A DNA stretch of 64,000 nt from Meridianimarinicoccus zhengii (GTDB lineage: Bacteria; Pseudomonadota; Alphaproteobacteria; Rhodobacterales; Rhodobacteraceae). The stretch is taken from NCBI RefSeq assembly GCF_003254465.1, contig NZ_QDFI01000009.1:1-64000 (forward strand). Direction: 5' to 3'. The notes below the pieces were generated by a model that was not told the origin of the DNA, made no database searches, and saw nothing but the letters and a program-made list of their open reading frames with translations. Position 1 is the first letter of the stretch. The number at the start of each line of letters is the position of its first letter. Position numbers and translations under genes: made by a program. Shown here piece by piece: positions 3,696 through 24,400 of the stretch.

Positions 3696-5166
3696 TGCCG
3701 CCTCCTGTGCTGATGAGCGAATTGATGATTGCCTCGGGAATGCCGGCATCGCGCATGGCGTCGATGTCGGCCGCGATCTCGCGCCAGACGGTTTGCGGAT
3801 CGTGGCCGCGCTCGCGGATGATCTGCCCCGGAGACGTGAAAAGGTTGTTCTTGGCCTCGATCGCCGCGCGCACATCCTTTCCGGGGTCAATCCAGTCCCA
3901 GCGCCGGCCCTGCCAGGCCACCCGGGAAAAGCGATCGAACCTGTCAGGCCGCGCGGGCGTGTTTCCGACAACGATCCTTCCACGCAGCAGCGCCTGCCGA
4001 AGCCACGCCAGGTATATCGGATGCACGACGGACTCGATCAGCCACTCCTGCAGATCCTTCCAGTGTTCGCGCTCGTCGAGCGTCCCCTGCCGGATGGACG
4101 AGAAGTTCACACCCTCGAGGTCCGTGGCGAGGTTGTTGTAGGCCACGCCCATGCCCGAAGCGACGCCGCGGAGCATCGCCTTGTGGAACACCGCGAATTC
4201 ACCCGACGGGTACGTCGGATCATGCGCCTTGAACCGCAGGCCCGCCGGCAGCTCGTGGTAGGTACCGGCTTCGGATTCGATGAGGACCTCTTCGTCGTCA
4301 TCGGGATCGGGACCGTGACCCTCTTCCCATTCAAGGAAGCCCTGCTTGTTGGCGCTTTCGCGCGCGTTCACCAGCGACGCGTTCTCGAACTCCGTAAGCT
4401 GGCCCATGCGCCACAGCGACGTTGCCACCCAAGGCAGGCCGCGGCGCTGCCCTGGGAAATCCTCGACGAAGGCATGAATGATTTCCGTGGCGGGCACCCG
4501 CACGAAAGCCTTGGCGCCGTAGTGATAGTTCGCCTCGCTGGTATCGAGCGTGGTGAACAGGTATGCGACCGGGCGGCCCCAGCGGTTGTATTCGATGCCG
4601 CTGCGAATGTAGGCGCCGTCGCGCATGTTGTCCTGGTCGTGGTCGACGGGGCATCGCTGCGGGTCGAGCACCTGCACTGCGAAACCGTCCTCTGACGCAT
4701 CCGCGGCATAGACCAGCCGGATCATTATCTCGCCATCGCGCGCGGCCGTCGCGACAGCGCCGTGCAGCATCATCCGGAAGCTGTGCCGCCCAGTGACCTC
4801 GCATCGCCCTTTGCGTGTCCAGCGGTGCCAGGCGGCCTCGATGGCGTCGTTCTCGCGCTGCGACAACCGGCCATTCGCCATCCGCGCCTGCGCCTGCAGC
4901 GTCACCCCGCGCGAACCCACGACGTTTTGTCGTGCCATGCGGAGGAACGCTCGCATGTAGTCGTTGTTCATTGCCTGGTGACGCGCCCTGGCCACAAGCG
5001 GCTTCTGATGACGGCGAACGATGTCGTCGATCGGCACCGGGACGGTCGGCATCTTCTGGGAAAACCGATCCGGCAGGGCGGCCATGAACCCGCGAGCTGC
5101 GCGATGCATCGCCTTGCGCACGGCGCGGAAACTGCGGGGTGGCCCGACTGTCGTTTTCTCCGCCAT
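3628..5166 (-). CDS. Lambda-family phage portal protein
   Basis: A 512-residue portal (pfam phage_portal_2 type), the dodecameric ring through which DNA is packaged. Recognisable features are the N-terminal region with QAMNNDYMRAFLRMARQNVV, the central DPQRCPVDHDQDN and GIEYNRWGRPVAYLF segments, and the late SGMGVAYNNLATDLEGVNFS stretch typical of lambda gpB relatives. The start is taken as ATG 5166, which shares a base with the TGA of the upstream gene; GTG 5169 is an alternative. Its 3-prime end overlaps the protease-capsid gene. Confidence 0.93.
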   Translation of the reverse strand: MAEKTTVGPPRSFRAVRKAMHRAARGFMAALPDRFSQKMPTVPVPIDDIVRRHQKPLVARARHQAMNNDYMRAFLRMARQNVVGSRGVTLQAQARMANGRLSQRENDAIEAAWHRWTRKGRCEVTGRHSFRMMLHGAVATAARDGEIMIRLVYAADASEDGFAVQVLDPQRCPVDHDQDNMRDGAYIRSGIEYNRWGRPVAYLFTTLDTSEANYHYGAKAFVRVPATEIIHAFVEDFPGQRRGLPWVATSLWRMGQLTEFENASLVNARESANKQGFLEWEEGHGPDPDDDEEVLIESEAGTYHELPAGLRFKAHDPTYPSGEFAVFHKAMLRGVASGMGVAYNNLATDLEGVNFSSIRQGTLDEREHWKDLQEWLIESVVHPIYLAWLRQALLRGRIVVGNTPARPDRFDRFSRVAWQGRRWDWIDPGKDVRAAIEAKNNLFTSPGQIIRERGHDPQTVWREIAADIDAMRDAGIPEAIINSLISTGGGNDRPQDAGSAGAAGAANGTGDD

Positions 5167-12315: not shown

Positions 12316-12603
12316 GTGCCCTGCCCTTTCAGATGGGATGCCCCTGCCGCCCGCGCGTCTGCGGCGCGGTTCACGACAGGGGCCCACGCGACCGCCACCG
12401 ACCGGGAGGAAGGAGCCATGCGGACGTGATCTCGATGTGTGGGATATGTGCGGGGGCCAGTGCGCAGCGACGGCGCCCCCGCGGTACCGCGTACCGGGCT
12501 ATGGCGAACCCCGCCGCGCCTGTCGCGTCGGACCTCAAGAGTGTTGCGCGCCCGAACGGGACTGCGCGACCCTGAAGGCATCGAATCACGAAAGGAATTG
12601 CCG

Positions 12604-13206
12604 ATGTCCGAATTCTCGAAATACAGCGCCGCCCGCCTGAACGATCGCCAGACCACCGAACTCGTCGGTATCGCACGCGGCCTCGTGGCCGACGGCATCC
12701 TGTCCGACGCCGAGATCGAATTCCTCCACCGGTGGCTGGTCGCGGCCACCGTGGCGACACCGAACCCGCTGCTTGAAAAGCTGTTGCTCCGGATCGAGGA
12801 CATCCTGTCCGACGGCATCGTGGATCCGGAGGAGCGCGCCGAGGTCCTCGAAGCGCTGCATGCCATCACTGGCCCGGACTTCGCCATAGGCGAAATGCTC
12901 AAGCCGACCACGCTTCCCTTGTGCAACCCCGCGCCGGACATCGCCTTCGACGGGCACCGGTTCACGTTCACGGGTGCTTTCGTCTTCGGGAAAAGGAAGG
13001 AATGCGAACAGGCTGTCATCGAACGTGGCGGCGACGCAGGCTCGCTGCGCAAGGACACGGCGTTTCTGGTGATCGGAGAATACGCCAGCGACGACTGGAT
13101 CCACTCGTCGTACGGTCGCAAGATCGAGAAGGCGATGCAGATGAAGCAGGGCGGTGTGCCGGTCCGGATCGTCTCTGAGGCGCATTGGCGCGGATTTCTG
13201 GGCTGA
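12604..13206 (+). CDS. BRCT-domain protein with helical N-terminal domain
   Basis: A 200-residue protein starting MSEFSKYSAARLNDRQTTEL after an AAAGGA site. Residues 1-95 are a helical domain with repeated acidic turns (GLVADGILSDAEIEFLHRW and ILSDGIVDPEERAEVLEAL). Residues about 112-198 are a BRCT domain like that of NAD-dependent DNA ligase: HRFTFTGAFVFGKRKECEQA, VIERGGDAGS, a DTAFLVIGE strand and the C-terminal SEAHWRGFLG. It probably binds DNA ends or partner proteins. It is the only rightward gene between leftward regulators, so it may be expressed separately, for example in the lysogen. Confidence 0.8.
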   Translation: MSEFSKYSAARLNDRQTTELVGIARGLVADGILSDAEIEFLHRWLVAATVATPNPLLEKLLLRIEDILSDGIVDPEERAEVLEALHAITGPDFAIGEMLKPTTLPLCNPAPDIAFDGHRFTFTGAFVFGKRKECEQAVIERGGDAGSLRKDTAFLVIGEYASDDWIHSSYGRKIEKAMQMKQGGVPVRIVSEAHWRGFLG

Positions 13207-13627: not shown

Positions 13628-13690
13628 GCACGCTTTAGCGTGCAGGTCAACGCACGCTATAACGTTCGTTCGCCGCACGCTGTCACGTGC
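13628..13690. promoter_or_regulatory. Three-site operator array between cro-like and repressor genes
   Basis: Three copies of a 16-bp element lie at 13628-13643 (GCACGCTTTAGCGTGC, 7-bp perfect arms), 13652-13667 (GCACGCTATAACGTTC) and 13675-13690 (GCACGCTGTCACGTGC). They are spaced 24 and 23 bp apart, about two helical turns. The same element recurs twice at 14578-14624. The layout resembles a lambda operator region. The cognate protein is inferred to be the repressor at 13704 and/or the Cro-like protein. Confidence 0.82.
13657..13686 (-). promoter_or_regulatory. Leftward early promoter
   Basis: Read leftwards there is a GTGACA -35 (13686-13681) and a TTATAG -10 (13662-13657) separated by 18 bp. 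The second operator covers the -10 and the third covers the -35, so a bound repressor would block it. It would drive the Cro-like gene. No transcription data are available. Confidence 0.5.
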
Positions 13691-13703
13691 TAGGCGATTA
13701 AGC

Positions 13704-14120
13704 ATGACAAAGAACGCAACGGAAGAAATGCTGGCGCGGCTGCGCGAAGTTCTTCAGCGGGGCCTCGACGAGAATCGGTACTCGATGCGCGAGCTGAGCG
13801 CCCGCGCAAAGAGCGGTACCAACTATGTCCAGCAATTCATGAAGGGCAACAAACGCAACATGTCGCTCGAGAAATTCGGGCTAATCATGATGGCTCTCGA
13901 TCAGGAGGAGATGCTCTACGTAATGATCGGGCAGCGGCTCACCGAGACAGATCGTCATCTGATGGCGCTGATTTCGAGTCTGCCCGACTCCCTGCGTCCG
14001 AATGCTGTCGGGATTCTCGAAGAGATCGCTGCGATGGGTCAGGAAGGCCGTGATCAAAGGTCAAATCTCGAATCCGTGCAAGCGCCTCCGATTTCTGGTC
14101 GGGGGACAAGCTCGACATAA
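13704..14120 (+). CDS. CI-like phage repressor (HTH, no peptidase domain)
   Basis: A 138-residue protein starting MTKNATEEMLARLREVLQRG. The first 70 residues are an XRE-type helix-turn-helix (NRYSMRELSARAKSGTNYVQ, then KGNKRNMSLEKFGLIMMALD). The rest is helical (ETDRHLMALISSLPDSLRPN) and could dimerise. No LexA/CI Ser-Lys autopeptidase domain is present, so RecA-stimulated self-cleavage is unlikely and another induction route is needed. Its 3-prime third is overlapped antisense by a LexA-box-controlled ORF. The long upstream in-frame extension runs through the operators and is rejected. Confidence 0.8.
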   Translation: MTKNATEEMLARLREVLQRGLDENRYSMRELSARAKSGTNYVQQFMKGNKRNMSLEKFGLIMMALDQEEMLYVMIGQRLTETDRHLMALISSLPDSLRPNAVGILEEIAAMGQEGRDQRSNLESVQAPPISGRGTSST

Positions 14121-14145
14121 TTGCCAAGGCCCTGATAACATCCAT
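13939..14145 (-). CDS. Candidate SOS-induced small protein antisense to the repressor (antirepressor?)
   Basis: A 68-residue frame starting MDVIRALAIMSSLSPDQKSE. It is preceded by a strong ribosome site (GGGAGG, four bases before ATG 14145) and by a promoter containing a LexA box. The first 30 residues look like an amphipathic helical hairpin; the rest is polar and may be disordered. It overlaps the last 60 codons of the repressor on the opposite strand. Its promoter context suggests a product or antisense RNA that relieves repression after DNA damage, comparable in logic to Tum of coliphage 186. Its sequence matches no family I recognise. Confidence 0.5.
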   Translation of the reverse strand: MDVIRALAIMSSLSPDQKSEALARIRDLTFDHGLPDPSQRSLRESRQHSDAGSRADSKSAPSDDDLSR

Positions 14146-14158
14146 GAAGCCTCCCTGT

Positions 14159-14202
14159 GTTCTTAATATGTTCTTATACGCTCCGGCGTGCGCGCACGTC
14201 AA
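14159..14202 (-). promoter_or_regulatory. LexA (SOS) box within a leftward sigma70-type promoter
   Basis: On the + strand 14159-14173 reads GTTC-TTAATAT-GTTC, an exact match to the GTTC-N7-GTTC LexA box of alphaproteobacteria. Read leftwards there is a TTGACG -35 (14202-14197), an 18-bp spacer and a TATAAG -10 (14178-14173). The LexA box starts at the -10 and covers the expected start point, the classical position for repression. The only downstream leftward features are the 68-codon ORF and the antisense strand of the repressor gene. Confidence 0.7.
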
Positions 14203-14235
14203 TCAAACCGAAGGCGCAACCACCTGCCGGGGCCG

Positions 14236-14532
14236 ATGCTGCGCAGCCTGATAATGCGCCGTCGTGCACGCGTCGTGTGGCCAACCGCCTGGCCGGCCAG
14301 CGTCCGTCTTGCGGCGATCAAGGCTGGGATCGTGCTGGTGCCGTCGTACACGGCGGCATGGCTAACGGACAAGATGGTCTATGTCGTGCCGACCCTCGCC
14401 GCCGCGGGAATCGTGGCCGCGCAGATCAGCTTTCAAAGCGATACGCAGCGTCGCACCGATGAAGAAAGCGACCACGACGGCAACCCGAACAGCGACACAC
14501 AGGTCGACGTAACCGACGACACCGACGGCTGA
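14236..14532 (+). CDS. Putative small membrane protein
   Basis: A 98-residue frame (MLRSLIMRRRARVVWPTAWP) with a basic N-terminus and one or two hydrophobic stretches (IKAGIVLVPSYTAAWL and VYVVPTLAAAGIVAAQI), followed by an acidic, Asp-rich tail. This layout could be a small inner-membrane protein. No convincing ribosome site is visible, and ATG 14254 or 14188 are alternatives. It sits between the repressor and the early rightward promoter, so it may be co-transcribed with the repressor. Function unknown. Confidence 0.42.
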   Translation: MLRSLIMRRRARVVWPTAWPASVRLAAIKAGIVLVPSYTAAWLTDKMVYVVPTLAAAGIVAAQISFQSDTQRRTDEESDHDGNPNSDTQVDVTDDTDG

Positions 14533-14577
14533 AATAGGCTGCGATTCGAGCGCTGGGCGCAATCGACTGAGTGAACC

Positions 14578-14629
14578 GCACGCTATGGCGTGCAAAAGGG
14601 ATTGCACCGCACGCTTTGGCGTGCATACT
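14578..14629 (+). promoter_or_regulatory. Rightward early promoter with two repressor operators
   Basis: Two further copies of the switch operator lie at 14578-14593 (GCACGCTATGGCGTGC) and 14609-14624 (GCACGCTTTGGCGTGC). A TTGCAC -35 (14602-14607) and a CATACT -10 (14624-14629), 16 bp apart, flank the second operator, which fills the spacer. The promoter points into the operon beginning at 14658. Sharing the element with 13628-13690 indicates that one repressor controls both directions. Confidence 0.72.
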
Positions 14630-15298: not shown

Positions 15299-15924
15299 CC
15301 CGGCACATCACGACATTCGGGCGCGACCTTATGCGCGCGATCAGCGGCACGCCGCTGGCCGGGCACCTGCGGCTGCGCGGCATCGTGGCCGACGCGGTGC
15401 ACGGGGCCAACGGATCGCTCGACCGCGCGCTGGACAAGGTGGAACGCGCCGTGCGCGACGAACCGCGGCTGCTGGTCGAACTGCTGGACGAGCGCAAGTT
15501 CCTGCGCGCCCTGTGCCGCAGCTTCACCGAGTCCGAAGCGCGCCGCCATGGCGTCACCCTGCGCAAGTCCGACGCGATGAAGCCGGGCACACAGGATCGG
15601 CCCGCCGCCACGACTGGCGCGGCCACCACGACTTCGACCGGCCGGGCCAAGCACAGCATGTCGCCCACTCACTCATTGCCCCGTCGGTCGGGGGCCATGA
15701 TGGCCGGTGCGGCGGGGGCCGCGCGCGTCGCGCTGCTGGACGTGATGCGCGTGAACGGCCAGCCCCTTCGCGCCGTCACGGCGGGCGAAGCGTTGAAATA
15801 CGCGGACAAGACGAAATCCGACGCCGTCACGATCGAACGCATCTGCGCCGGGCTGAAGGAACGCGTCCCCGTGGGCGACCAGATTGACGACGCCGAGGCC
15901 GCGCGCCGCGCCGCCCCGTCGTGA
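15295..15924 (+). CDS. Hypothetical phage protein
   Basis: A 209-residue protein starting MTRHITTFGRDLMRAISGTP. Residues 1-100 are helical (LDRALDKVERAVRDEPRLLV). A Thr/Ser/Ala-rich linker lies around 105-140. The last 60 residues include DVMRVNGQPLRAVTAGEALK and a helix-turn-helix-like stretch (DAVTIERICAGLKERVPVG). No family is recognised. It is coupled to the previous gene by ATGA, which fixes the start despite a longer open frame upstream. Confidence 0.6.
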   Translation: MTRHITTFGRDLMRAISGTPLAGHLRLRGIVADAVHGANGSLDRALDKVERAVRDEPRLLVELLDERKFLRALCRSFTESEARRHGVTLRKSDAMKPGTQDRPAATTGAATTTSTGRAKHSMSPTHSLPRRSGAMMAGAAGAARVALLDVMRVNGQPLRAVTAGEALKYADKTKSDAVTIERICAGLKERVPVGDQIDDAEAARRAAPS

Positions 15925-15929
15925 CCGAG

Positions 15930-16070
15930 ATGCGCGGGGCCAACCAAACTGTGACTCCCTTTTGCGGGCTGCCCCCGCGCAGCAACATCCCGGCGAGGGC
16001 CGCTCAACTATTGACGCCCAAGTTCTCGGTGCCCCCGCCGGGACACCCCACAACCGGAGACACCCGATGA
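15930..16070 (+). CDS. Possible small protein in operon gap
   Basis: A 46-codon frame (MRGANQTVTPFCGLPPRSNI) starts five bases after the previous stop and ends with a TGA that overlaps the next ATG (ATGA at 16067-16070), continuing the coupling pattern of the operon. It is Pro-rich and has no recognisable domain or strong ribosome site. It lies within the first copy of a 116-bp direct repeat, so it may be only a by-product of that duplication. Confidence 0.35.
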   Translation: MRGANQTVTPFCGLPPRSNIPARAAQLLTPKFSVPPPGHPTTGDTR

Positions 16071-16222
16071 CCCACATTCCCGAGACGGCCGACACAGGCC
16101 ACGACATGCGCGGGGGCCACGAAAATGTTGACACCCTGACAAGCAGCGCCCCCGCGCAACCCCATCCCGGCGAGGACCAAGACCCAGTTGACGCCCAATT
16201 GCGGTGTGCCCTTGCCGGGACA
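15930..16222 (+). repeat. Imperfect 116-bp direct repeat, 176-bp period
   Basis: Copy 1 is 15930-16045 and copy 2 is 16106-16222. Both begin ATGCGCGGGG and end GCCGGGACA, with shared blocks such as CATCCCGGCGAGG and TTGACGCCCAA. The second copy encodes part of the N-terminus of the following protein. The first copy, read in that same frame, gives a similar peptide (PAQQHPGEG against PAQPHPGED). This suggests a duplication within an ancestral coding region, followed by a start shift. Confidence 0.6.
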
Positions 16223-17080
16223 TGCGACGCGCTGATGGAGCTTCAGGTCCGCCGCCGCGCCTTCATCGCCGATATCGGCACGATCGAACGCCGCCTGGGG
16301 GCGCTGGCGCGCCGGATGCTCGGCTGGCACGCCGCTCTGCCCGAAGCCGAAAGAAAGCGCCTGAACACCCGCGCCGACAAGCTGGTGCGCGACCTGATGG
16401 CCGGAAAGGACCCGGGCGACGACGCCGCGCTGGCCCGCCAGACCGGGCTGGTCGATCACGTCGCCATCGCCGTGCAGGGGCTCGCGGCCTTTCGCGCAGG
16501 CCGCAAGGCGACAGAGAAAGATATGGAACGCCTTGCCGCCGACCTGCCCGCCATGGCGCTGGTCACCGCAACGCGCGGGTTTTCGGCTCGTGGGCTCGCG
16601 ATCATCGTGGGCGAGGCCGGGAACCTGTCGGACTACGCCAACCCCGCGAAGCTGTGGAAGCGGCTGGGGCTGGCCCCGATGAACGGCCGCGCCGGATCGA
16701 CCTGGCGCATGAAGGGCGGGCTGACCGCCGAGGAATGGATCACGCTGGGTTACAGTCCGGCGCGGCTGGGCCAGATTTACGGTGTCGTCACCGAACCGCT
16801 GATGAAGGCGAACGACGGCAAGTATCGCGCGCTCTATCTGCGCGAGAAGGCCCGATTTGCCGATGACGGCAAGGCCGCGCGCCCGATGCACGCGCACCGC
16901 CACGGCATGCGCGTGATGACCAAGGAACTGGTGCTGGACACATGGCGCGCATGGCACGGCCTGCCCCCGCGCGTCCGGAACGGGCTGCCCGCGTGCAGCC
17001 CCGGCGGGGGCCTGCCTCTTTGCGCCGCCCATACCGGGAGTGCCCCCGCCGACGACACGCTGCTGGAGGACGTCGCATGA
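16067..17080 (+). CDS. IS110-type Transposase_20 domain protein (domesticated?)
   Basis: A 337-residue protein starting MTHIPETADTGHDMRGGHEN after a GGAG site. Residues about 50-150 are helical. Residues about 155-290 resemble the C-terminal Transposase_20 domain of IS110/IS116/IS902 recombinases: MALVTATRGFSARGLAIIVG, then LSDYANPAKLWKRLGLAPMN, then the RAGSTWRMKGGLT segment and a late helical part. The N-terminal DEDD RuvC-like catalytic domain of IS110 is absent, and no IS ends or bridge-RNA-like flanks are seen. It is therefore more likely an adapted phage gene than a mobile transposase. The homology call should be tested by profile search. Confidence 0.5.
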   Translation: MTHIPETADTGHDMRGGHENVDTLTSSAPAQPHPGEDQDPVDAQLRCALAGTCDALMELQVRRRAFIADIGTIERRLGALARRMLGWHAALPEAERKRLNTRADKLVRDLMAGKDPGDDAALARQTGLVDHVAIAVQGLAAFRAGRKATEKDMERLAADLPAMALVTATRGFSARGLAIIVGEAGNLSDYANPAKLWKRLGLAPMNGRAGSTWRMKGGLTAEEWITLGYSPARLGQIYGVVTEPLMKANDGKYRALYLREKARFADDGKAARPMHAHRHGMRVMTKELVLDTWRAWHGLPPRVRNGLPACSPGGGLPLCAAHTGSAPADDTLLEDVA

Positions 17081-24379: not shown

Positions 24380-24400
24380 CCGCGGGAACAGAAAACGAAC

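Follow-up and report, generated by a model that had tools for sequence, protein, structure and literature searches.

How does a temperate phage sense DNA damage when its repressor lacks a domain for cleaving itself? This question is raised by a locus in Meridianimarinicoccus zhengii, which we analysed within a window of 64,000 nucleotides, the whole stretch of DNA considered here. To the left of a CI-like XRE repressor gene lie phage head, portal, terminase, endolysin and replication genes. We found no Peptidase_S24 match in the repressor, in agreement with a preliminary description of this DNA, and none anywhere on the window's contig; the three S24 matches of the genome, one of which is lexA, are all on other contigs. 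The preliminary description had also proposed that a LexA-controlled gene reading back into the repressor acts as a switch, as Tum does in phage 186. Our analysis makes it probable that what lies here is a small antirepressor gene under LexA control, whose product inactivates the adjacent non-cleavable repressor after DNA damage. The features are collected in Table 1.

Table 1. Features of the repressor region, in window coordinates, with the basis of each assignment
Feature	Position	Strand	Basis
Leftward small gene in cro position (start taken at inner ATG); by eye similar to L009 7689-7907	13388-13615	-	ORF; by eye
Three operator-like sites (13628, 0 mismatches; 13652, 2; 13675, 2) between repressor and leftward cro-position gene	13628-13690		palindrome search
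CI-like XRE repressor, 138 aa; HTH and predicted C-terminal helices 81-91 and 98-123 (lower confidence); no S24	13704-14120	+	ORF; domain search; AlphaFold2
Gene of 68-aa small protein, candidate antirepressor; the core shared by the family spans about residues 1-31, the tail varies	13939-14145	-	ORF; profiles; AlphaFold2
Shine-Dalgarno-like GGGAGG, 4 nt from ATG 14145	14150-14155	-	sequence
LexA box GAAC-N7-GAAC / GTTC-N7-GTTC, exact	14159-14173		motif search; host lexA/recA; comparative count
Leftward promoter TTGACG (14202-14197), 18 nt, TATAAG (14178-14173)	14173-14202	-	sequence; shuffle test
Repressor-operator-like palindrome (2 mismatches) in spacer and -10 of LexA promoter	14176-14191		palindrome search
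Small membrane-type protein (start uncertain), MVYVVPTLAAAGI motif	14254-14532	+	ORF; by eye
Two operator-like sites (0 mismatches) ahead of rightward operon	14578-14624		palindrome search

The exact LexA box, GTTCTTAATATGTTC, overlaps the -10 element of the leftward promoter, where it had been placed before. This promoter had been called a good one, and it bears that out: TTGACG-18-TATAAG matches the consensus at 10 of 12 positions, a score that none of 200 shuffles reached. It is missing from the list of a stricter promoter scan because that scan accepts no -10 element without a T at its end, and TATAAG ends in G. The host lexA and recA regions have one exact GTTC-N7-GTTC box each; therefore the motif is the right one for this host, and the small gene's promoter contains the host's own LexA box. 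The box alone is not rare, with three exact copies in the window against 1.56 expected, and it is significant through its position and conservation rather than through rarity alone. A further exact LexA-type box at 24386-24400, within a long leftward frame, is likely due to chance.

Behind this promoter, the ribosome site and 68-codon ORF of the preliminary description were recovered, as was the antisense course of the predicted transcript: the ORF is convergent with the repressor gene and overlaps the last 182 nt of its coding sequence. The span first given for the feature, 13939-14202, holds an alternative longer frame of 87 codons that starts from a TTG inside the promoter, but the version that aligns with relatives is the one beginning at ATG 14145.

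The trail to these relatives opened through one distant plasmid match, a prophage on pRA01 of Roseicitreum antarcticum (L009). Its repressor is 30% identical to that of the window, and its repressor, promoter, exact box (54 nt behind the repressor) and convergent ORF (beginning MDKIIEIFDVWRRLTPEQR) are in the same places. The L009 promoter, TTGACC-18-TACAAT, also has 10 of 12 matches, a score reached by 2 of 200 shuffles; at most other loci with a box the sigma-70 score is no better than that of shuffles, so the quality of the promoter does not serve as evidence in general. Further relatives were collected by profile and tblastn searches, which gave six records of the phages Yong-M2-251, Ssp-JY39, Atu_ph08 and POI1126, 16 of 394 genomes of the host family (its own included, several of the matches weak), 17, 4 and 1 loci from viral contigs, and 11 loci from named genomes. 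Across the class, the repressor profile matched 4 of 385 genomes at E<=1e-6, again including the host's own. The window repressor had no relative in viral contigs, genome contigs, phages or the other 6 genomes of the genus, and the window small protein none in viral contigs.

After dereplication, 36 loci with related repressors were kept for counting the box and the ORF family. All were gathered via the repressor, and it is the family in repressor settings that they sample. Dropped before the counts were three loci with S24 (L011, L051, L057), one with a longer repressor (L056), four weak matches in long frames (L020, L021, L023, L024) and one whose record ends inside the gene (L027). We also dropped own or duplicate entries (L001, L002, L008, L010, L030, L031, L037, L040, L054, L055, L058-L060, L062), long unrelated proteins (L066-L068) and entries that are not repressor loci (L003-L007, L052, L053, L069-L071); L072 and L073 came after the counts. 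An exact box lies within 365 nt 3' of the repressor stop in 19 of the 36 loci, compared with 0.38 loci expected by dinucleotide shuffles and 6 of 480 control tiles of 365 nt from the same loci. A binomial p for this count overstates independence, because the related pairs L028/L032, L033/L034 and L035/L036 remain among the 36.

The small ORF recurs as well. A profile built without the window and L009, from 11 small proteins of other phages, puts the window ORF 1st among the 1019 frames of the window (E 0.0036; next 3.8). Leave-one-out profiles, with seed peptides picked by eye from the same loci and with each locus and its cluster removed (L009 stays in for the window, and the window for L009), detect a leftward ORF of one family in 20 of the 36 loci at E<1e-4, with the window ORF at 1.4e-8. 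The weakest members are L045 (4.5e-5), L009 (1.3e-5), L063 (1.1e-5) and L038 (2.1e-6), and the second-best frame in the 20 loci, control frames included, never falls below 4e-4; in the other 16 loci no family member was found at E<1e-4. The window ORF thus fits the core profile, runs leftward and stands 3' of an XRE repressor. Exact LexA boxes are present at 15 of the 20 loci with a family ORF.

No Pfam or PHROG family is matched by more than one of the 17 members of alignment A7 at E<=0.1, and the small protein is not annotated in Atu_ph08 or in plasmid pRA01. Searched against the 394 genomes of the host family, the window protein gave five weak matches (E 0.004-0.008), which we took as chance, and there was no convincing homologue in the 393 other genomes. 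Outside Alphaproteobacteria, a locus of Vibrio hannami (L065) has a leftward convergent ORF at 2852, MTVSEYIDLVAKLSEVQRRGSGKG, that resembles the family core; it matches the family profile weakly (E 0.015), and no LexA box of either type lies nearby.

Is it the protein or an antisense RNA that is conserved? Selection is testable in the nine Atu_ph08-like prophages only, because the window core lacks close relatives and lies for the most part opposite the repressor tail. In these prophages, whose hosts, where named, are Rhizobiales, the 24-codon core sits just outside the repressor gene. Over core codons 2-24, pS is 0.66 and pN 0.29, a ratio of 0.44; read in its two other frames, the same core gives pN/pS of 0.99 and 1.69, and the antisense tail gives 1.54. 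The tail varies most at the second codon position of the ORF, which we assume, taking the phase from the window, to be the wobble position of the repressor. The family core is under protein-level purifying selection and the antisense tail is not. The small ORF is therefore a real, selected protein gene, as judged by profiles for the window and by selection measured in its Atu_ph08-like relatives. Moreover, the ORF of L039 and of L015/L062 reaches only about 25-28 nt into the repressor gene, and in L014, L041, L043 and L061 a membrane-type gene stands directly behind the repressor and the cassette, complete with an exact box and a family ORF, comes after it. Given the selected core, the unselected tail and the cassette behind an intervening gene, the conserved unit looks like a protein rather than an antisense RNA. 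The product of window 14254-14532 is, by eye, homologous to the intervening gene of these four loci (L061 2799-3044).

These findings weaken the antisense option of the preliminary description, in which the SOS transcript rather than the protein would cut repressor synthesis through collision or pairing. This explanation can point to the reach of the ORF into the repressor gene on the opposite strand and to a scan that shows no terminator-like site between the ORF and the repressor start. Against it stand the core kept as protein beside a tail that is not, the short overlaps and the cassettes behind a membrane gene, and less synthesis would in any case leave existing repressor in place. We consider it quite improbable as the main mechanism; a longer transcript may contribute beside the protein. 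The same conserved core and displaced cassettes are left unexplained by read-through, in which transcription from the SOS promoter would pass the repressor gene, enter the leftward cro-position gene and thereby bypass the left operators. That gene does have the same direction as the SOS promoter, and a terminator-like site is found not ahead of it but inside it (1.3 are expected by chance in the stretch), yet we hold this explanation to be very improbable.

Might the small protein have another target, as an SOS-made effector of RecA, cell division or host transcription that merely sits beside the repressor? Its members share no family annotation, 5 of 20 lack the box, and the repressor is a target that we infer. 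Against this are the linkage to one repressor family and the constant position, in loci that were found via the repressor, and a repressor without S24 would need such a partner. We therefore judge another target unlikely. That box and ORF are a functionless coincidence, as the three exact boxes in the window and the lack of a convincing homologue in the other family genomes might suggest, is scarcely credible, since the profiles, the selection on the core and the box count already contradict it. A candidate antirepressor gene in a real, conserved SOS cassette is the most likely reading of these sequences.

The cognate repressor of the window is without a self-cleaving domain, and none of the 25 repressors of alignment A8 has an S24 match. 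Among the repressors encountered, S24 was carried by L011 and L051, which are nearly the same protein, and by the distant L057; at these three loci neither an exact box (within 420 nt) nor a family ORF follows the repressor. Against the proposal, the longer repressor of L056, which has no S24 match, also has neither box nor family ORF behind it. The pattern in which S24 repressors go without box and family ORF is suggestive, from few cases.

How could so small a protein act on a repressor? AlphaFold2 predicts two helices in the window protein, at residues 3-12 and 15-31, with block pLDDT of 86-95 over residues 1-30 and a low-confidence tail. The prediction is of a helical hairpin, as a SinI-like protein would have. 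In Bacillus subtilis, SinI is a very small helical partner that acts on SinR, and here too a short XRE repressor with predicted C-terminal helices is paired with a very small helical protein. The HTH part of the repressor matches many XRE structures; Foldseek lists the SinR/SinI entry 1b0n second for this repressor, at an E of 0.12 that is not significant. The likeness has limits: VIA-align covers only the HTH part of 1b0n, the SinI family is not among the Pfam-A matches of the 17 members at E<=0.1, and the trigger is a different one. Fold searches with the small protein gave nothing significant (best E 2.1 in a viral library and 6.3 in the PDB). A likeness between the small protein and the repressor C-terminus, seen by eye, reached E 0.002 in one pairwise BLAST comparison, and hhalign places the small-protein profile on the C-terminal helices (P 0.042). 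However, the score was attained by 20 of 300 column shuffles and surpassed by the reversed profile; we therefore dropped sequence mimicry as evidence and keep it as a structural idea only.

Operator-like palindromes flank the repressor gene on both sides. With a pattern derived from the perfect sites, nine sites with at most two mismatches occur in the 64 kb, six of them within 13628-14624. The palindrome in the LexA promoter may be a second lock that places it under double control by LexA and the repressor, which would then help to silence its own antagonist. The L009 promoter has no operator-like site, even with up to three mismatches allowed, so the second lock is a local idea. Elsewhere in the neighbourhood, window 12592-13203 (+) is a rightward gene beside leftward genes; it matches phrog_3989, and its product weakly matches the C-terminal part of the NAD-dependent DNA ligase family. 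Window 15884-17080 (+) weakly resembles IS110-type transposases, at a level below the family cut-off.

We propose that host LexA would keep the leftward promoter shut in the lysogen. Upon DNA damage, LexA would be cleaved and the promoter would fire. The small protein, with a two-helix hairpin of about 30 residues as its presumed working part, would then inactivate the adjacent repressor, probably by binding and perhaps at the C-terminal helices, so that the operators on both sides would be freed and the lytic operons could start. Of the Tum-like switch first proposed, the small-protein gene stands, with recurring box, ORF and position and a core selected in relatives; we infer its transcription after damage, the production of the protein, the repressor as its target (and thus the antirepressor activity) and the hairpin contact.

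The loci vary in how box and ORF are combined. Five of the 20 family members (L012, L015, L039, L044, L045) have no exact box, so SOS control is not universal. Four loci (L022, L026, L029, L049) have a box and an ORF unmatched by the family profile; the convergent ORF of L026 is, by eye, a different protein of 77 residues. L029 is phage POI1126, which has a short repressor with an exact box behind it and was recovered through mitomycin C induction, according to the available part of PMC5492332. L026 is phage Yong-M2-251, and at 4001-4393 its deposited annotation has an antisense CDS, UPT53391.1 (4157-4321), and no repressor CDS. L072 and L073, on plasmids of 39-41 kb, have neither exact box nor family member behind the repressor; 3' of it they have mutually similar convergent small ORFs, PVDVFANLLEIGVIGRLIEVA and PADVFAAVVESGIAGRVLSLL, a third type by eye. 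This variety leads to a wider hypothesis, held tentatively and at somewhat less than an even chance: short non-cleavable XRE repressors of alphaproteobacterial phages may have behind them a plug-in induction slot, in which an exchangeable cassette with its own promoter and a hairpin antirepressor of about 30 residues supplies the signal, and the trigger is swapped with the cassette. LexA control would then be one common version, with the family without the box, another protein in the LexA slot and a different small convergent ORF as alternatives.

LexA-controlled antirepressors are established for phages 186 (Tum), N15 (AntC) and Gifsy (GfoA/GftA), as stated in the available text of PMC3121763, and LexA sites ahead of phage antirepressor genes are also named in that of PMC9437464. 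The cassette resembles these systems in having a small phage gene under LexA; the product inactivates the repressor there and is proposed to do so here. The Gifsy repressor, too, is short and held to be non-cleavable, but its antirepressor unit lies apart from the immunity region (PMC3121763, same text), whereas ours is convergent with the repressor gene and overlaps it. Tum has 146 residues and a DinI-like second half (PMC3121763, same text), in contrast to a predicted core of about 30 residues here. For sequence kinship with the Tum and GfoA families, the comparison covered Pfam and PHROG, where no family is matched by more than one of the 17 A7 members. SOS-independent small antirepressors occur in Vibrio phages. 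In the TF-smORF modules of Vibrio and Aeromonas phages, the cI of the phage itself is inactivated by a small phage protein that has no homologues, and inactivation of the phage's repressor is what we propose for the cassette (Silpe et al. 2023; available part of PMC10432266). Unlike the cassette, whose promoter has a LexA box and whose gene faces the repressor, those modules are SOS-independent and divergent from an activator gene (same part of PMC10432266). Titles and abstract openings, mostly of papers outside subscription, contained no description of this cassette or family.

The best reading of the small proteins is that they form an undescribed family of LexA-controlled antirepressors, a family unnamed in the Pfam and PHROG libraries searched. 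With a proposed active part of only about 30 residues, it is a mechanism that is easily tested. The cassette offers a possible account of DNA-damage sensing by those temperate phages in Rhizobiales and Rhodobacterales whose repressors are short and non-cleavable, and cassettes that lack a LexA box hint at phages with other triggers.
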